Shown here piece after piece: positions 1,226-9,102 of a stretch of 64,000 nt of DNA. The notes below the pieces were generated by a model. That model did not search any database and was not told where the DNA came from. It saw nothing but the letters and a program-made list of their open reading frames with translations. The DNA comes from Exiguobacterium sp. 9-2 (GTDB lineage: Bacteria; Bacillota; Bacilli; Exiguobacteriales; Exiguobacteriaceae). The stretch's first letter is position 1, and every line of letters starts with the position of its first letter. Made by a program: the position numbers and the translations under genes. The stretch is taken from positions 336,001 to 400,000 of the forward strand of contig NZ_CP142850.1 in NCBI RefSeq assembly GCF_036287235.1. The letters run 5' to 3'.

Positions 1226-1646
1226 AGCCCATACTCGTTTCATGATTAACCTGCCATTGTACGCCAAACGCATCTTCGACAATACCATAGGCTTCACTCC
1301 AAAACGTCTTTTGAATCGGCATGATGATCTTGCCGCCTTCAGCGAGCCGTGCGAACGTTTCGTGCAAAAGCTTCACATCAGCTAAGTGGAGGGCTAACGT
1401 GATGTTTTGTCCGAACGTCACAGGGTTTTGTGGCATCGCGTCTGAGAACATGAGACGTGTGCCATGAACGATGAGTTGTGCGTGTAAAATCAGTGTCTGG
1501 TGCTCCGGTGGATACGGTTGACCATCCGGTCCAGGACCTGGTCCGAACTCCATGATTTCCGGCATTTCTTCCTGGAACACCTCTGTGTAGAACGTCAACG
1601 CTTCACGGGTATTTCCATTAAAGACAAGATACGGATTAATCGGCAT
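1224..1646 (-). CDS. VOC (glyoxalase/PhnB-like) superfamily protein
   Basis: A 140-residue cytoplasmic protein. It starts PYLVFNGNTREALTFYTEVF, the standard opening of PhnB/YjdN-type VOC proteins (wrongly named 3-demethylubiquinone methyltransferase in many annotations). Two beta-alpha-beta-beta-beta units are recognisable, the second ending EDAFGVQWQVNHE. Family members are metal-dependent or metal-free small-molecule binding proteins, so the substrate cannot be inferred. ATG at 1646 with AAAGGAG upstream. It is divergent from the LacI gene, and the intergenic region holds a cre-like site and the lacI promoter. Confidence 0.85.
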   Translation of the reverse strand: MPINPYLVFNGNTREALTFYTEVFQEEMPEIMEFGPGPGPDGQPYPPEHQTLILHAQLIVHGTRLMFSDAMPQNPVTFGQNITLALHLADVKLLHETFARLAEGGKIIMPIQKTFWSEAYGIVEDAFGVQWQVNHETSMG

Positions 1647-1742
1647 GGGAAAGCTCCTTTCAAAAGGGAGAATGTGTTTCTTTCAGTGTACCAAACATTC
1701 GTTCGTATAAAAAGAGTAGGTTGCTGATTTATTTAGTATAAA

Positions 1743-1756
1743 TGATAACGGTTTCA
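1743..1756. promoter_or_regulatory. candidate CcpA cre box
   Basis: The 14-mer TGATAACGGTTTCA fits the degenerate cre consensus TGWNANCGNTNWCA at every position. It lies 27 bp upstream of the lacI -35 box and between divergent genes, so it could act on either. Sequence match only. Confidence 0.4.
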
Positions 1757-1783
1757 ATTTATCTGATTTTTATAAAAAATAGG

Positions 1784-1812
1784 TTGCAACTTCCAGAAAG
1801 ACTTCGTATACT
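1784..1812 (+). promoter_or_regulatory. SigA-type promoter of the LacI repressor gene
   Basis: TTGCAA (1784-1789), a 17-bp spacer and TATACT (1807-1812). The expected start point falls next to or within the operator palindrome at 1821-1834, which suggests autorepression. Confidence 0.75.
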
Positions 1813-1820
1813 AAATTTAT

Positions 1821-1834
1821 CGAAAGCGCTTTCG
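1821..1834. promoter_or_regulatory. LacI-family operator palindrome, copy 1
   Basis: Perfect 14-bp palindrome CGAAAGCGCTTTCG just downstream of the lacI -10 box. The identical sequence occurs at 2984-2997 and a one-base variant at 2951-2964, before the sugar-transport genes. The CG-centred form is typical of LacI/GalR operators. Confidence 0.8.
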
Positions 1835-1853
1835 GTGAAATGGAGTGAGTAGT

Positions 1854-2867
1854 ATGGGAACAATTTATGATTTAGCGAAGATGACTGGTTTTTCGATCAC
1901 GACGGTCTCGAAAGCCTTAAATAATTATTCAGATGTCAGTGAAAAGACGAAAGCGAAGATCGTCCAGGCGGCAGCTGAGATGGGATACTTGCCGAATGCA
2001 CATGCTCAATCGCTCTCGACAAAACGTTCGTGGACGATTGGTGTCATGTTTTCAGAAGCACATGGTGTCGGCATGATGCATCCGTTCTTTAATGCGATCA
2101 TTGAAAGCTTCCGGAAAGCAACGGAGCAACAAGGTTATGATCTGATTTTTGCATCACGAAATTTACGTAATCGGGACATGAGTTACTTGGAGCACTTTCG
2201 GCACCGAGCAGTTGATGGCATTGTCGTCATCTGTTCGGACCAGTTGGATCTGCACGTTCAAGAATTGATTCAAAGTACGATTCCGATCGTTGTCGTTGAT
2301 ATGTACAGTCCGGATTGTAGCGTCGTCTATTCCGACAATATTACGGGTGGGCGACTAGCCGTCGAGCATCTATATGAATTAGGTCATCGCCGGATTGCGC
2401 ATATCGCTGGCGATACGACGACGGATGCTGGTGCAGCAAGGATCGAAGGTTATAAACAAGCAATGACTCAGTTTGGTTTGCCGATTCCGGACGGCTATAT
2501 TGCAAACGGTGGGTTGTTTTCCGGAGAAGAAGGAAAACGGGCGATGCAAGAATTGCTGGTGCTACCGGATCGACCGACTGCTGTCTTTGCGGCAGGGGAC
2601 CAAATGGCAATCGGCGCTATTGAAGCGATTCATGAAGCTGGCTTACAGATTCCAACAGATATCTCACTCGTAGGCTACGATGATATCGAGATGGCGAAGT
2701 ATATCACACCGAAGCTGACGACTGTTCGGCAAGATACGGAAACAATTGGTCAGCAAGCGGCTTCAGTCTTGATCGAACAGATTGTCGATAAACAGCGGAT
2801 GACGACACAAGACGTCATTCCCGTCGAGTTGATCGTTCGTCATTCGACAGGTCCTGCACCTGAGTGA
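1854..2867 (+). CDS. LacI/GalR-family transcriptional repressor of the beta-glucoside operon
   Basis: A 337-residue regulator. Residues 1-25 form the LacI helix-turn-helix (TIYDLAKMTGFSITTVSKAL) followed by the hinge helix; the remainder is a periplasmic-binding-protein-like effector domain with the family hallmark VGYDDIEMAKYITPKLTTVRQD near the C-terminus. The ATG at 1854 is preferred over the GTG at 1845 because GGAG sits at the right distance and the HTH then begins as in the family. It is followed by its own terminator and by an ABC sugar transport/beta-glucosidase operon with the same operator sequences, so it is inferred to repress that operon and itself, probably relieved by a beta-glucoside or breakdown product. 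Confidence 0.92.
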   Translation: MGTIYDLAKMTGFSITTVSKALNNYSDVSEKTKAKIVQAAAEMGYLPNAHAQSLSTKRSWTIGVMFSEAHGVGMMHPFFNAIIESFRKATEQQGYDLIFASRNLRNRDMSYLEHFRHRAVDGIVVICSDQLDLHVQELIQSTIPIVVVDMYSPDCSVVYSDNITGGRLAVEHLYELGHRRIAHIAGDTTTDAGAARIEGYKQAMTQFGLPIPDGYIANGGLFSGEEGKRAMQELLVLPDRPTAVFAAGDQMAIGAIEAIHEAGLQIPTDISLVGYDDIEMAKYITPKLTTVRQDTETIGQQAASVLIEQIVDKQRMTTQDVIPVELIVRHSTGPAPE

Positions 2868-2876
2868 CGTGCGACG

Positions 2877-2940
2877 ATTTCGGAATCGCTCTCGCTGGTT
2901 GTCAGGGAGAAAACGCGAGAGCGATTCCGAAATTATTTTT
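2877..2940 (+). terminator. terminator of the LacI gene
   Basis: A 19-bp perfect stem (2877-2895 with 2915-2933) followed by TATTTTT. It makes lacI monocistronic and separates it from the transport operon. Confidence 0.9.
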
Positions 2941-2950
2941 ACGGCAGTTA

Positions 2951-2964
2951 CGAAAGGGCTTTCG
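2951..2964. promoter_or_regulatory. LacI-family operator, imperfect copy 2
   Basis: CGAAAGGGCTTTCG, one base off the palindrome at 1821 and 2984. It lies 20 bp before the perfect copy 3 (33 bp centre to centre, about three helical turns), which suggests cooperative binding at the transport operon promoter. Confidence 0.65.
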
Positions 2965-2973
2965 ATTATTTTC

Positions 2974-3003
2974 TTGTCATTTTCGAAAGCGCTTTCGGAT
3001 TAA
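2974..3003 (+). promoter_or_regulatory. probable promoter of the beta-glucoside transport operon
   Basis: TTGTCA (2974-2979) and a weak GATTAA (2998-3003) with an 18-bp spacer. Operator copy 3 fills the spacer, so repressor binding would block polymerase directly. The -10 is poor, so the exact start is uncertain. Confidence 0.5.
2984..2997. promoter_or_regulatory. LacI-family operator palindrome, copy 3
   Basis: Perfect CGAAAGCGCTTTCG, identical to the copy before lacI at 1821-1834, placed between the putative -35 and -10 elements of the transport operon. Confidence 0.8.
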
Positions 3004-3013
3004 ACGATTAAAT

Positions 3014-5322: not shown

Positions 5323-6246
5323 ATGGAACGAAATGCAGAAGCACGCCGGCTCGTGCCACAAACGGAAGAACAACCAGAACGCTCGGAGCATCCGCTTCGA
5401 TTGCCGCCGCCTCCAAAACGGAAAAAACCATGGCTTGGAAAAACGATCATTTACCTCGCATTGATTGCCTTGACGATTGCCTGCATCATTCCATTCTTGA
5501 TGATGATCGTCAACGCAACCCGGTCAAATGAAGAAGTCCTGTCCGGCTTTTCTTTGATCCCGGGCAACTCGCTTGCTGACAACTACGCGGCGTTGAGTTC
5601 GTACGTCAATATCTGGTCCGGCTTTAAAAACAGCTTGATCATTGCTGTACTCGTGACCGTCTTGTCGGGATACTTTTCCGCCTTGACCGCATTCGGTTTT
5701 GCATTCTATCAATTCAAAGGAAAAAATGTCTTGTTCGTGTTCATGCTGATCATGATGATGATTCCAGGACAGCTCGGATTGATCGGTTTTTATGAGCTCA
5801 GCAAAAACTTAGGATTGCTCGATAGCTTCATTCCGCTCATCGTACCGGCTATTGCTAGCCCGTTCACCGTGTTCTTCATCCGGCAGTACGTCCAGACGGT
5901 CCTCCATCCGAGTTTGATTGAAGCAGCACGTATCGATGGAGCAAGCGAATGGCGGATCTTCCATACGATCGCCTTACCGATGATGATGCCCGCGATTGCG
6001 ACGATGTCGATCTTCACCTTCATCGGTTCTTGGAATAACTACATCATGCCGCTCGTCTTACTCTTCTCGCCAGAAAAGTATACGCTCCCGGTCTTGATGG
6101 GATTCTTGAAAGGTTCACAAGTCGCAGAGAACTTAGGGTCACTGTATCTCGGCATCGCGATTTCCGTCGTGCCGATCATGATCGCTTTCTTGTTCCTCTC
6201 GAAGTATATCGTTAGCAGTATCTCGGCTGGTGCCGTCAAAGAATAA
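5323..6246 (+). CDS. ABC sugar transporter permease, MalG-like
   Basis: A 307-residue inner-membrane subunit. About 37 charged and proline-rich residues precede the first helix, longer than usual for MalG; six helices follow, with the EAA loop EAARIDGASEWRIF beginning at about Glu200 and a typical C-terminus (SSISAGAVKE). Start ATG at 5323 with GAAAGGAG overlapping the end of the upstream permease gene, consistent with translational coupling. Second membrane half of the beta-glucoside importer. Confidence 0.92.
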   Translation: MERNAEARRLVPQTEEQPERSEHPLRLPPPPKRKKPWLGKTIIYLALIALTIACIIPFLMMIVNATRSNEEVLSGFSLIPGNSLADNYAALSSYVNIWSGFKNSLIIAVLVTVLSGYFSALTAFGFAFYQFKGKNVLFVFMLIMMMIPGQLGLIGFYELSKNLGLLDSFIPLIVPAIASPFTVFFIRQYVQTVLHPSLIEAARIDGASEWRIFHTIALPMMMPAIATMSIFTFIGSWNNYIMPLVLLFSPEKYTLPVLMGFLKGSQVAENLGSLYLGIAISVVPIMIAFLFLSKYIVSSISAGAVKE

Positions 6247-6268
6247 TTCGTCAAAGGAGATGACATAC

Positions 6269-7615
6269 ATGAAATTTGCACCAAACTTTGTATTCGGAAC
6301 AGCCACATCGTCGTATCAAATCGAGGGCGCTTACAACGAAGACGGACGGACGCCTTCCATCTGGGATGCGTTTTGCGCAGAAGATGGCAAGGTCTTCAAC
6401 TGGCAAAACGGTAACGTCGCTTGTGATCATTACCATCGTTATGAAGAGGACATCGCCCATATTAAGAAGCTTGGCGTCGATACGTATCGCTTCTCGATTG
6501 CCTGGCCACGGATTTTTCCGCAAAAAGGAATTTATAATCCTGAAGGCATGGCGTTTTATAAGCAGCTTGCAACACGCTTGCGCGAAGAGGGCATTAAGCC
6601 GGCTGTCACACTGTATCATTGGGATTTGCCACTCTGGGCACACGAAGAAGGCGGCTGGGTCAACCGAGAATCGGTCGACTGGTTCCTTGATTTTGCACGG
6701 GCATGTTTTACGGAGCTTGACGAAGTCGTCGACTCTTGGATTACGCACAATGAGCCGTGGTGTGCTGGGTTCCTCAGCTATCACATCGGGGAACATGCAC
6801 CCGGTCATACTGATCTAAACGAAGCCGTTCATGCGGTGCATCATTTGCTCTTATCTCACGGAAAAGCAGTCGAAATGCTGAAGGAAGAGATGAAATCGAC
6901 GACACCGATCGGCATTACACTCAATCTGGCGCCTAAATATGCAAAGACAGATTCGGTCAATGATCGGTTAGCGATGAATAATGCAGACGGCTATGCGAAT
7001 CGTTGGTTCCTTGATCCGGTCTTTAAGGGGCATTATCCGGTCGACATGATGAATCTTTTCTCAAAATATGTCCATTCGTTTGCTTTCATCCAGGAAGGGG
7101 ACATGGAAACGATTGCTGTACCGTGTGACTTCCTCGGGATTAATTTCTATAGCCGCAACCTCGTCGAATTCAGCGCAGCAAATGATTTTCTACAAAAAGC
7201 TGCGTATTCTGACTACGACAGAACCGCGATGGGATGGGACATTGCACCGAACGCATTCAAGGACTTAATTCGCCGATTGCGGGCGGAATATACAGATTTA
7301 CCGATCTATATTACAGAAAACGGAGCCGCATTTGACGATGAGCTGATTGAAGGACGGGTCGCCGACCAAAACCGAATCGATTATGTTGCGCAACACTTGC
7401 AAGCAATCTCGGATTTGAATGAAGAAGGCATGAATATTGATGGCTACTACTTATGGTCGCTTCTTGACAACTTCGAGTGGAGCTTCGGTTACGAAAAACG
7501 CTTCGGAATCCTGTATGTCGATTTCGAGACACAGGAACGAATTTGGAAGGACAGTGCTCATTGGTATGCGAACGTGATCAAGCAACATAAAGCTACGCTT
7601 CCCCAAAGCGTATAA
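6269..7615 (+). CDS. GH1 beta-glucosidase
   Basis: A 448-residue cytoplasmic glycoside hydrolase of family 1. It begins FAPNFVFGTATSSYQIEGA, the usual GH1 opening, with acid/base Glu162 in the HNEP motif and nucleophile Glu350 in YITENG; the WSLLDNFEWSFGY block near the end is also canonical. It retains the beta anomer and would split imported, non-phosphorylated beta-glucosides to glucose. The ATG at 6269 is preferred to 6230 or 6260 because AAAGGAG lies 9 nt before it and upstream residues are not family-like. Last gene of the LacI-controlled operon; the structured repeat at 7618 starts within 3 bases of its stop. Confidence 0.95.
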   Translation: MKFAPNFVFGTATSSYQIEGAYNEDGRTPSIWDAFCAEDGKVFNWQNGNVACDHYHRYEEDIAHIKKLGVDTYRFSIAWPRIFPQKGIYNPEGMAFYKQLATRLREEGIKPAVTLYHWDLPLWAHEEGGWVNRESVDWFLDFARACFTELDEVVDSWITHNEPWCAGFLSYHIGEHAPGHTDLNEAVHAVHHLLLSHGKAVEMLKEEMKSTTPIGITLNLAPKYAKTDSVNDRLAMNNADGYANRWFLDPVFKGHYPVDMMNLFSKYVHSFAFIQEGDMETIAVPCDFLGINFYSRNLVEFSAANDFLQKAAYSDYDRTAMGWDIAPNAFKDLIRRLRAEYTDLPIYITENGAAFDDELIEGRVADQNRIDYVAQHLQAISDLNEEGMNIDGYYLWSLLDNFEWSFGYEKRFGILYVDFETQERIWKDSAHWYANVIKQHKATLPQSV

Positions 7616-7617
7616 GG

Positions 7618-7867
7618 AAAAGAGGCTGACTCAAAAAAAGAATGACGCGTCTTTTCACGCCCTTTCCTCAGGCGAGACACAAGCCAGTTTTCCTGCTTCA
7701 TTCAAGCAGGAAATCGGGTCTTGTTTGTCTCTGACAGCGCATAATGCGCTTTTTCCTGTAGGAGTGGCGTGTGACGCGTCATTCTTTTTGTTAAAAGATA
7801 AGGGTGGCAGATCATCATTCTGCCACCCTTATCTTTGTAGAGACTGACTTTTGAGTCAGCCCCTTTT
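7618..7867. repeat. nested multi-arm inverted-repeat element (possible structured RNA, terminator complex or MITE-like element)
   Basis: About 250 bp with layered dyad symmetry. Outer arms 7618-7636 and 7849-7867 pair at 18 of 19 positions. Inside, arm A (7635-7651 with 7773-7789, 17 bp perfect) encloses a hairpin 7689-7698/7704-7713 and a small one 7736-7741/7745-7750 followed by TTTTT. Arm B (7794-7810 with 7820-7836, 17 bp perfect, 9-nt loop) stands beside it. The outer right arm can alternatively fold locally (7844-7849 with 7854-7859). It probably ends the beta-glucosidase transcript, but is far larger than an ordinary terminator. No coding frame inside looks real. It could be a dispersed genomic repeat. 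Confidence 0.75.
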
Positions 7868-7996
7868 GCCCGGATTAAATAAAAAAATCAATAGAAATAG
7901 GGTGAAAAAATGTGTAAAAGAAAAAGGATTAAAACCCATCATATGGAATGTAAAGTGTAGAGGTGACATCTATTCGTTTTCAGGGGAGGAAACGTC
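7868..7996. other. AT-rich leader region of the 7997 gene
   Basis: About 130 bases between the structured repeat and the next gene. No convincing -35/-10 pair was found. The only notable item is the GGGGAGG ribosome binding site at 7982-7988. Confidence 0.5.
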
Positions 7997-8470
7997 ATGC
8001 GTCAGAGGGACTTACCGTATCGGTTCATCTTTATTTTAGGTTTACTTGTCATGATTGGAATTAACGGATGGTCCGCCATGCTCCATCCGGACGGAACGAT
8101 TAACGGATGGCAAAGCATTGCCTCCGTTGTCTGGCTTATTGGTTTAGTCGGGTCTCTATTCTATATCAAAGAAGATAAAGCACTTCGACTTATGGTCTGG
8201 TATATCCGGATTGGTCTCGTTGCGGCGTTATTCATCTACGGTGTTTCGTTACTTGAAGGCGCGTTTTCTGAGACGATTTGGTTTGATGGGCTTGCGAGTG
8301 TTCAGTTCATATTCTATTTCCTCTTCGTCATCCCATTGTTTGGATTAAATGCCTGGACGGATGTTCTGTTTGGTGAGTTTTCGTTATACATGAGTGTTCT
8401 GTACGGTATCGCCTTGATCACGCTTCACGTAAAAGTCTGGAATGATGCATCACGACATTTAAATTATTGA
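7997..8470 (+). CDS. small integral membrane protein, function unknown
   Basis: 157 residues with about four to five hydrophobic segments and short polar loops, no signal peptidase site and no motif that I recognise. ATG at 7997 with GGGGAGG 8 nt upstream. It is followed by its own terminator and then by the ECF sigma operon, so it is not cotranscribed with that operon. Short membrane proteins of this kind are often annotated only as hypothetical. Confidence 0.75.
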   Translation: MRQRDLPYRFIFILGLLVMIGINGWSAMLHPDGTINGWQSIASVVWLIGLVGSLFYIKEDKALRLMVWYIRIGLVAALFIYGVSLLEGAFSETIWFDGLASVQFIFYFLFVIPLFGLNAWTDVLFGEFSLYMSVLYGIALITLHVKVWNDASRHLNY

Positions 8471-8473
8471 TTC

Positions 8474-8502
8474 AAAAAGGTGACCTTGTGTCGCCTTTTT
8501 TT
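8474..8502 (+). terminator. terminator after the 7997 membrane-protein gene
   Basis: AAAAAGGTGAC and GTCGCCTTTTTTT pair with one G-U and a 5-nt loop, ending in a long T-run. Confidence 0.8.
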
Positions 8503-8508
8503 GTTGTG

Positions 8509-8540
8509 CGTCAACTTTTTTCTCGACTCGCCCGTCTTAA
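8509..8540 (+). promoter_or_regulatory. candidate ECF-type autoregulatory promoter
   Basis: GTCAACTTTTTT carries the AAC (8513-8515) typical of ECF -35 elements; 17 bp later CGTC (8533-8536) in CCGTCTTAA resembles ECF -10 elements. It lies just upstream of the ECF sigma gene, where autoregulation is the rule. Confidence 0.55.
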
Positions 8541-8583
8541 TGATGTATACACAGAACGATATCGAAAAAAGGAGCCGCGGCCT

Positions 8584-9102
8584 ATGACCTCTCGCCAAAT
8601 GAGAAAACGGGAACGAGCATTCGTCCGTTTTTTAAAGCAATACAAACCGAATCTCTACTGGTTAGCCTACAGTTATATGAAAAATGAACAGGATAGTCTG
8701 GATGTCATTCAGGACAGCATCCAAAAAGCGTTACAATCACTCGACCGACTCGAGGATGATGAACGGATGAAAGCCTGGTTCTATCAGATTTTGACACGAA
8801 CAGCGATCGATGCGATCCGGAAACGTCAGCATAGTATCAGTTACGACACGGAGCGACTGATCGAACTTGTCGCGACGAAAGAAGATACATACCCGGATTC
8901 CGATTTACGACAGGCGCTAGAGGAGCTGCCTGTCATGTACCGGGAAGTCGTTATCTTACACTATTTCGAAGACTTGATCTTAAAAGATGTCGCGACGATT
9001 TTAGAGCTGAACCTAAGTACGACCAAGTCTCGCCTCTATAAAGGGTTGACCTTACTGAAAATGAAATTGAATGGAGATGATCTAGATGTCAAACAAACTT
9101 GA
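8584..9102 (+). CDS. sigV: ECF-family RNA polymerase sigma factor, SigV-like
   Basis: 172 residues. Region 2 spans roughly residues 15-80 (LYWLAYSYMKNEQDSLDVIQD, then AWFYQILTRTAIDAIRKRQ) and region 4 about 115-165 (LPVMYREVVILHYFEDL, then ILELNLSTTKSRLYKGL). The ATG at 8584 has AAAGGAG 9 nt upstream, while the longer frame from 8467 runs through the preceding terminator and promoter. The next gene overlaps by 17 bases and encodes an RsiV-like anti-sigma factor, which argues for the SigV type. In Bacillus SigV answers cell-envelope attack by lysozyme; the same trigger here is inferred. Confidence 0.88.
   Translation: MTSRQMRKRERAFVRFLKQYKPNLYWLAYSYMKNEQDSLDVIQDSIQKALQSLDRLEDDERMKAWFYQILTRTAIDAIRKRQHSISYDTERLIELVATKEDTYPDSDLRQALEELPVMYREVVILHYFEDLILKDVATILELNLSTTKSRLYKGLTLLKMKLNGDDLDVKQT

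Follow-up and report, generated by a model that had tools for sequence, protein, structure and literature searches.

A probable IS1182-related miniature element in the place of terminator stem-loops in Exiguobacterium

IS1272 and TnSha1, two elements of the IS1182 family, are reported to insert at hairpins, many of which are terminators, and to substitute themselves for the whole hairpin or a part of it; no target duplication results, and TnSha1 can insert in either orientation in one terminator (available text of PMC4923244 and PMC5678879). Families of stem-loop repeats, such as Bcr1, Bhal-1, Efa-1 and Sta-1, have also been described in Bacilli (available text of PMC2267715). In pneumococci, BOX, RUP and SPRITE are presented as MITE-like intergenic repeats, and SPRITE is called terminator-like (available text of PMC10969869).

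Here we characterize a 250-bp block behind a GH1 beta-glucosidase gene in a 64,000-nucleotide stretch of Exiguobacterium sp. 9-2. The whole stretch is referred to as the window and its genome as G000; other genomes have G-numbers, and loci or copies have L-numbers. Comparison of genomes revealed dispersal of the block, polymorphism of its sites, terminal inverted repeats, a location just past the 3' ends of genes, replacement of hairpins and conservation of an internal core. The block is thus very probably a copy of a non-autonomous, MITE-like element related to IS1182 that was inserted by replacing a terminator stem-loop. The terminator site of the beta-glucosidase gene is occupied by this element.

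Structure, dispersal and gene context of the element

The predicted fold of the block reaches -138.2 kcal/mol, compared with -70.7 ± 4.6 kcal/mol for 200 shuffled sequences, none of which folded as well (z -14.7); the z-score was -15.5 for the minus strand folded as RNA and -17.1 for the element folded as DNA. The features proposed by the initial annotation are present (Table 1): this fold has a multibranch junction enclosed by the outer stem, the outer right arm has a competing local fold, and there are two small hairpins. Of the three long helices, which the initial annotation gave as 19, 17 and 17 bp, the first two have these lengths and the third has arms of 18 nt. The element has no coding capacity for a transposase, the largest ORF wholly inside it being 40 aa. 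The adjoining 157-aa protein (window 7997-8470) is without a Pfam or NCBIfam match and has only three confirmed relatives in the genome collection, all from Exiguobacterium.

Table 1. Positions in the window of the element, its parts and the preceding gene
Feature	Position	Strand	Details
Upstream host gene, GH1 beta-glucosidase	6230..7615	+	TIGR03356 594.3 bits (cut-off 478.5); PF00232
Outer arms	7618-7636 / 7849-7867		19 nt; 95% complementary
Putative left base of old host terminator stem (AAAA)	7618..7621	.	Element-free G011 shares flank (GGAAAA) up to here
Left terminal inverted repeat	7622..7636	.	GAGGCTGACTCAAAA; recurs at copy ends; pairs with 7849-7863
Inner stem, left arm	7635..7651	+	Closes core; 17 nt, 100% complementary to 7773-7789
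Conserved branched core module, model R1	7656..7772	+	136.9 bits; window copy itself in the model's alignment
Variable hairpin inside core	7684..7718	+	15-nt arms, 87%
GCGC hairpin inside core	7736..7750	+	Second small hairpin; found in window genus
Inner stem, right arm	7773..7789	+	Pairs with 7635-7651
Right hairpin	7794..7836 (arms 7794-7811/7819-7836)	+	18-nt arms, 100%
Local hairpin in right terminal repeat	7839..7864 (7839-7849/7854-7864)	+	11-nt arms, 82%; competes with outer stem
Right terminal inverted repeat	7849..7863	.	TTTTGAGTCAGCCCC; recurs at copy ends
Putative right base of old host terminator stem (TTTT)	7864..7867	.	Element-free G011 shares flank TTTTGCCCGG from here

The genome search suggested by the initial annotation gave matches to the block in all 19 Exiguobacterium genomes, the window's included, and the uniqueness of the block is refuted. 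The 11-69 matches per genome are aligned pieces and not copies. Because the best matches in the genus genomes start and stop at window positions 7618 and 7867 (query 19 and 268), the borders drawn at the outset approximate those of the repeat itself. Within the 3.06-Mb genome of the window, a DNA search recovered three more nearly complete copies at 92-94% identity, along with several that are shorter or split. The element has two main forms: one comprises all 250 bp, and the other, whose match ends near query position 188, lacks the right hairpin. Searches of plasmid and phage collections with the element gave no match.

The location of the copies relative to genes was examined at 56 de-duplicated sites with a mechanical ORF of at least 100 aa on both sides (a 57th site, with an ORF on one side only, was left out). 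Of these, 36 lie between tail-to-tail genes, 20 between tandem genes and none between head-to-head genes; across the 92 gene 3' ends concerned, the distance to the element has a median of 8.5 nt. The background of neighbouring ORF pairs in the window is 6 tail-to-tail, 41 tandem and 5 head-to-head of 52. This count takes in five apparent stand-alone cores (L010, L013, L016, L017 and L046; four tail-to-tail, one tandem). Restriction to the 52 sites with a recognisable end (at most three mismatches), which L017 passes probably by chance, gives 32 tail-to-tail, 20 tandem and again no head-to-head site. A riboswitch or 5' leader of a host gene was rejected on the same figures, given that no site is head-to-head, that the 36 tail-to-tail sites have no adjacent gene start and that the copies lie so close to gene 3' ends.

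IS1182-type relatives and the branched core

Because hairpin replacement is reported for IS1272 and TnSha1, PF05598 (DUF772) transposases were sought in the genus and found in 10 of its 19 genomes; the window genome has no PF05598 match. An insertion sequence (IS) of G006, which is a different species, encodes a transposase that matches NF033551 at 390.6 bits (cut-off 270) and therefore belongs to the IS1182 family. Its ends, GAGGGTGACTCA/TGAGTCACCCTC, are one base from the 12-base end of the element, GAGGCTGACTCA, and its GAGGGTGACTCA resembles the left terminal repeat GAGGCTGACTCAAAA of the window copy. In Firmicutes, GGGCTGTCTCAAAAG is a common sequence at the ends of IS1182-type elements, and Bacillaceae frequently contain repeats similar to GTTGATTGGAGCGGAA. 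In the direction of its transposase gene, the G006 IS begins with the left end and continues with the core module, the transposase gene, a hairpin and the right end (at L173, core 559-682 and transposase 852-2435, followed by the hairpin), and the window element has the same order minus the gene; by eye, the position of its right hairpin in this layout is that of the hairpin after the transposase gene. No intact parent IS with exactly the ends GAGGCTGACTCA was found among the genomes searched.

The 38 PF05598 loci of the genus that were scanned for the core include 10 repeat fetches and represent 28 distinct places. Fourteen core matches were obtained at nine of these places, each before the transposase gene and on the transposase strand. 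Three kinds of IS carry the core in the genus, those of G006 (five places), of G004/G018 (three) and of G016 L133/L175 (one); the matches of the latter two are weak when taken alone (E 0.003-0.02), but motif and place are shared. The L168 transposase (G004) belongs to the IS1182 family (470.7 bits), the L175 transposase fragment scores 269.1 bits, just below the cut-off of 270, and the L168 leader folds better than its shuffles (z -6.4). The transposases of core-bearing IS with different ends are about 22-27% identical to that of G006 over the aligned parts. No core was found at the other 19 places, which belong to G002, G005, G007, G008, G011 and G015, to one IS of G004 and to the GGCTGGGACA kind of G016. 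In G016, which has 19 IS1182-type genes with open frames of 535-538 aa, the eight compared IS copies with ends GAGGCTGGGACATAA/TTATGTCCCAGCCTC (L160-L165, L178 and L179; at least 99% identical within each comparison) lie within stems whose outer bases vary between copies yet pair.

Beyond the genus, four of 10 IS1182-type loci from the sister genus and other families have the core before the gene and on the same strand (three in G022 and one, weak at E 0.068, in G298), and six gave no core match. In the sister-genus genome G022, L200 and L218 match the IS L275 at 90% over their left 203-208 bp, which include the core, and at 78-79% over their right 68-70 bp, but they have no gene; these miniature elements are plainly internally deleted IS copies that kept the core. 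The L275 transposase is split over two reading frames (1268-1885 and 1953-2810), by decay or frameshifting, with 239.4 bits for the C-terminal frame (NF033551 cut-off 270) and no match for the N-terminal one; at L280, too, only a short open frame of 195 aa coincides with the match. IS copies of G004 and G022 adjoin terminator-like hairpins. Two hairpin copies flank each of seven printed elements of G022, G035 and G290 (L275, L280, L200 and L218; L199 and L217; L228), with no replacement, and the terminator-like hairpin itself looks like a duplicated target in the IS1182-type elements and MITEs of these genomes. Judged by eye, the G035 and G290 elements also contain, close to their right end, what resembles another core in inverted orientation; the model did not report it at E 0.001.

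The covariance model of the core has 12 to at least 130 matches per genome in all 19 genus genomes. G008 (at least 99) and G015 (at least 130) stand apart from the rest of the genus (12-47), and their figures may be too low since up to 150 candidates per genome were scored. The model also matches 17 of 19 genomes of the sister genus, which is of the same family, and at least 40 of 398 genomes of the class, a lower bound owing to stricter filters and the few candidates scored per genome; nine of these 40 come from eight genera in other families. Several other-family genomes have many copies, up to 49 at E ≤0.01. Distant cores have in common the motif CTTTCC..GGC...GAGCC...GGGTCTC...CC..AGGAGTC, and the GCGC hairpin is not present in five aligned core matches from the sister genus and other families. 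Outside the window's family, core copies are often framed by GTTGATT.../...AATCAAC (L245, L254 and L235 of G303; L236 and L244 of G382; L241 and L250 of G393), and those of G303 are arranged in tandem with a spacing of about 215 bp. Rfam 15 gave no match at gathering score in the whole window and none over the cores in eight other loci. By E-value, the best sub-gathering match over the element is CsrC (E 0.00018; 21.9 of the 61 bits needed), which covers only the right hairpin; weaker matches are mostly microRNA or sRNA families on simple hairpins or elsewhere in the loci, and an RNase P match in L238 and a tsr24 match in L234 lie outside the cores.

The covariation analysis suggested at the outset revealed compensatory changes in both the arms and the core. 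Among 67 of the 77 copies, aligned with stand-alone ones included, double changes occur in nine of 16 pairs of the inner stem and in nine of 10 pairs of the variable hairpin. In the core, both partners have changed in 25 of 38 pairs among 25 diverse sequences (9.4 ± 2.1 in shuffles) and in 12 of 38 pairs among 18 element copies alone (2.6 ± 1.3 in shuffles); neither value was reached in 500 shuffles. The changes among gene-less copies indicate that the core structure is maintained inside elements without a transposase gene.

Several roles of the core can be considered. The most likely one, which we hold with about even confidence, is that of a cis-acting structure of the mobile unit, retained since copies lacking the core do not propagate. 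Ranked second, and tentative, is regulation of the transposase gene by the core as a leader RNA, with the core simply carried along. More broadly, the core could act as RNA either as such a leader or as a small RNA produced from many copies, which we regard as possible but the less probable case. The strong covariation, the leader position and the transposase strand fit an RNA, as do two nearly fixed pairs that are G-U or U-G on that strand in 21 and 23 of 25 sequences in alignment A3 and in 35 and 38 of 38 in A4, which was fitted to the core model; these two pairs speak for RNA on the transposase strand. The overall excess of G-U over A-C cells on this strand (71 versus 26 in A3, 93 versus 18 in A4) is nearly all due to them. 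When they are left out, G-U and A-C occur 27 and 26 times in A3 and 20 and 18 times in A4, and helices P2-P4 of the 67 copies show the opposite direction, with 26 G-U against 51 A-C. Because there is no G-U excess outside the two fixed pairs and the core is kept in elements without the gene, a cis-acting structure is favoured over a leader RNA, and the structured-RNA alternative offered by the initial annotation is a less probable reading of the core.

It is also conceivable, if rather unlikely, that the core, as a repeated or mobile structured element in its own right, became nested into IS1182-type elements and their MITEs instead of belonging to them from the start. The window genome contains stand-alone cores closed by other stems (L010, L013, L016 and L017), other-family copies often have the outer GTTGATT/AATCAAC flanks, and most IS1182-type places of the genus (19 of 28) have no core match. 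Against nesting, the core occupies the same leader place and strand in IS whose ends differ and whose transposases have diverged to about 22-27% identity, and sister-genus IS and MITEs share it along with the left end.

A more far-reaching interpretation, which we consider improbable as it stands, is that the core is a Bacilli-wide structured part of some IS1182 elements and that the transposase uses this structure, as an extruded DNA hairpin or as RNA, to match hairpin targets. If so, terminators would be chosen by structure and not by sequence, and many intergenic core repeats of Bacilli would be by-products.

Occupied, empty and inverted sites

Window positions 6900-8700 were used as the query for comparing the site among genomes. 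In G011, which is of the same species, the flanks are 97-98% identical and enclose no element; in its place is a plain hairpin, AAAAAGGCAAGGAC-GACTCATT-GTCCTTGCCTTTTT. In G016, where the flanks are again 97-98% identical, the element is inverted, so that both orientations are found at this site (+ in G000). The inverted copy is identical to the window copy at 245 of 250 positions, as is another G016 copy at 246 of 250; it may stem from a second insertion or from inversion of a single one. The initial annotation had suggested, as one of two possibilities, a MITE-like element that may have landed in a terminator, the two halves of which became the outer arms. This is close to our results, with the refinement that the arms are mainly the terminal inverted repeats of the element plus the base of the old terminator stem; the old hairpin has lost its upper part, which was not divided between the arms, and only the base (AAAA/TTTT) is common to the element-free genome at the window site.

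At another location, G001 and G003 have the element before the same downstream gene as in the window, behind a different upstream gene. The corresponding place in G002 and G010 is taken by a plain hairpin, whose base (ACAAG/CTTGT) is kept in G001; in G003, the right side alone is recognisable. Six further G000 copies were compared with G011 and G016. In G011, four of the sites are filled and two (L002 and L004) are empty, the L004 site being the hairpin AGCGGTTGTTCTC/GAGAGCAACCGCT. In G016, two are filled, one is shortened, one (L008) is empty, one holds other DNA and one has no match; L008 is a shortened copy, and G016 has a long hairpin at the same site. At the L002 site, all that G011 has is a short hairpin identical to the end of the element itself; this resembles the product of a later collapse of the element between short repeats, with an ancestral hairpin as another possible reading. 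In G016, the L002 site (L299, about 1640-3010) holds a two-ORF IS, probably IS3-like, within another paired stem. An unrelated hairpin was thus replaced in four of five element-free comparisons (the window site, G001/G003 versus G002/G010, L004 versus G011 and L008 versus G016), and no target duplication was seen at the compared element-free and occupied sites.

The pairing of the flanks was tested in 40 of the 77 copies, 28 without recognised ends or flanks and nine duplicates having been dropped. With G-T allowed, the innermost variable base of one flank can pair with that of the other in 34 of 40 copies, compared with 22.0 ± 2.6 after shuffling and a maximum of 30 in 2000 shuffles. Beyond flank positions 3 and 5, complementarity was not above that of shuffles (189 of 320 for positions 3-10 together, compared with 183 ± 6.5); the abundance of A in the left flanks and of T in the right ones makes the test nearly blind in this outer part.

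We propose that an IS1182-type transposase acting in trans would recognise the ends of the element and that its target would be a terminator hairpin, whose stem-loop would be exchanged for the element with at most the base of the hairpin kept. The element ends may themselves fold as a terminator-like hairpin in either direction, in which case the genes would stay insulated and an insertion would cost little. A terminator scan of 7550-7950 found four terminator-like sites, three of them within the element, compared with 0.2 in shuffles. The end hairpin of the element (7839..7864) was not among the sites flagged by this simple scan, and the terminator role of the ends is therefore a putative one.

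Spread of the copies by homologous exchange between similar terminators in place of transposition is very unlikely. The terminator-like ends could provide homology, and an inversion between the arms could account for the reversed orientation at the window site in G016, but the replaced hairpins at four sites are unrelated to the element ends and a hairpin the same as the end was found at L002 only. A repeat of the REP/REPIN type, mobilised by a REP-associated (Y1) transposase, is even less plausible: the many short palindromic intergenic copies, with the high core counts of G008 and G015, would suit such a repeat, but the core is absent from all 17 Y1 loci at E up to 1, and six of the 14 genomes searched, the window genome included, have no Y1 match. 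Least credible of all is a compound terminator peculiar to the window site and nothing more; despite the start of the element 3 nt past the upstream ORF and the terminator-like sites within it, this is refuted as the sole explanation by matches in every genus genome and by element-free alleles with other hairpins.

Comparison with known systems

The insertion mode and MITEs as such are already known kinds. A literature search, mainly of abstracts, returned no IS1182-derived MITE of Exiguobacterium and no such core, and texts that name IS1182 together with miniature inverted-repeat do exist. Neither IS1182 nor Exiguobacterium is mentioned in the available text of the MITE review (PMC10969869); the word 'mite' is absent from the main text of the IS1272 and TnSha1 reports (PMC4923244, PMC5678879), and no such module is mentioned in the text available from them. 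Within the literature searched, a genus-wide family of IS1182-related, terminator-swapping MITEs and a branched module common to several IS1182-type IS and to many repeats of Bacilli did not appear. These results link the intergenic structured repeats of Bacilli, the replacement of hairpins by IS1182 elements, a mode of transposition that has been little studied, and the turnover of bacterial terminators. If our reading is right, a very small transposon has replaced many terminators of one genus with no apparent damage to the genes, and the exchange is readable from aligned genomes. The conserved core offers a handle on how hairpins of arbitrary sequence are recognised by a transposase; should the core prove necessary, a transposition system would have gained a new component, and otherwise the core is a strikingly conserved passenger.

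Among described repeats, Bcr1, Bhal-1, Efa-1 and Sta-1 resemble the element in being short, mostly intergenic and structured, with tens of copies per genome (available text of PMC2267715), and families of the Bhal-1 or Efa-1 type might include relatives, likened here by name, size and copy number alone. The pneumococcal BOX, RUP and SPRITE belong to another genus and are likened by their published description only. Closer in build are the IS1182-type IS of G006 (L173), G004 (L168) and G022 (L275), which have the core in the leader and differ in that the transposase gene is kept; L173 also matches the element in the order of parts and has nearly the same ends. As far as the available reports describe them, IS1272 and TnSha1 share with the element the hairpin target, the loss of part or all of the stem-loop and the lack of duplication, and TnSha1 also the occurrence in either orientation. 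They are autonomous or composite elements of staphylococci, whereas the element described here is a gene-less, 250-bp unit of Exiguobacterium with a conserved branched module.
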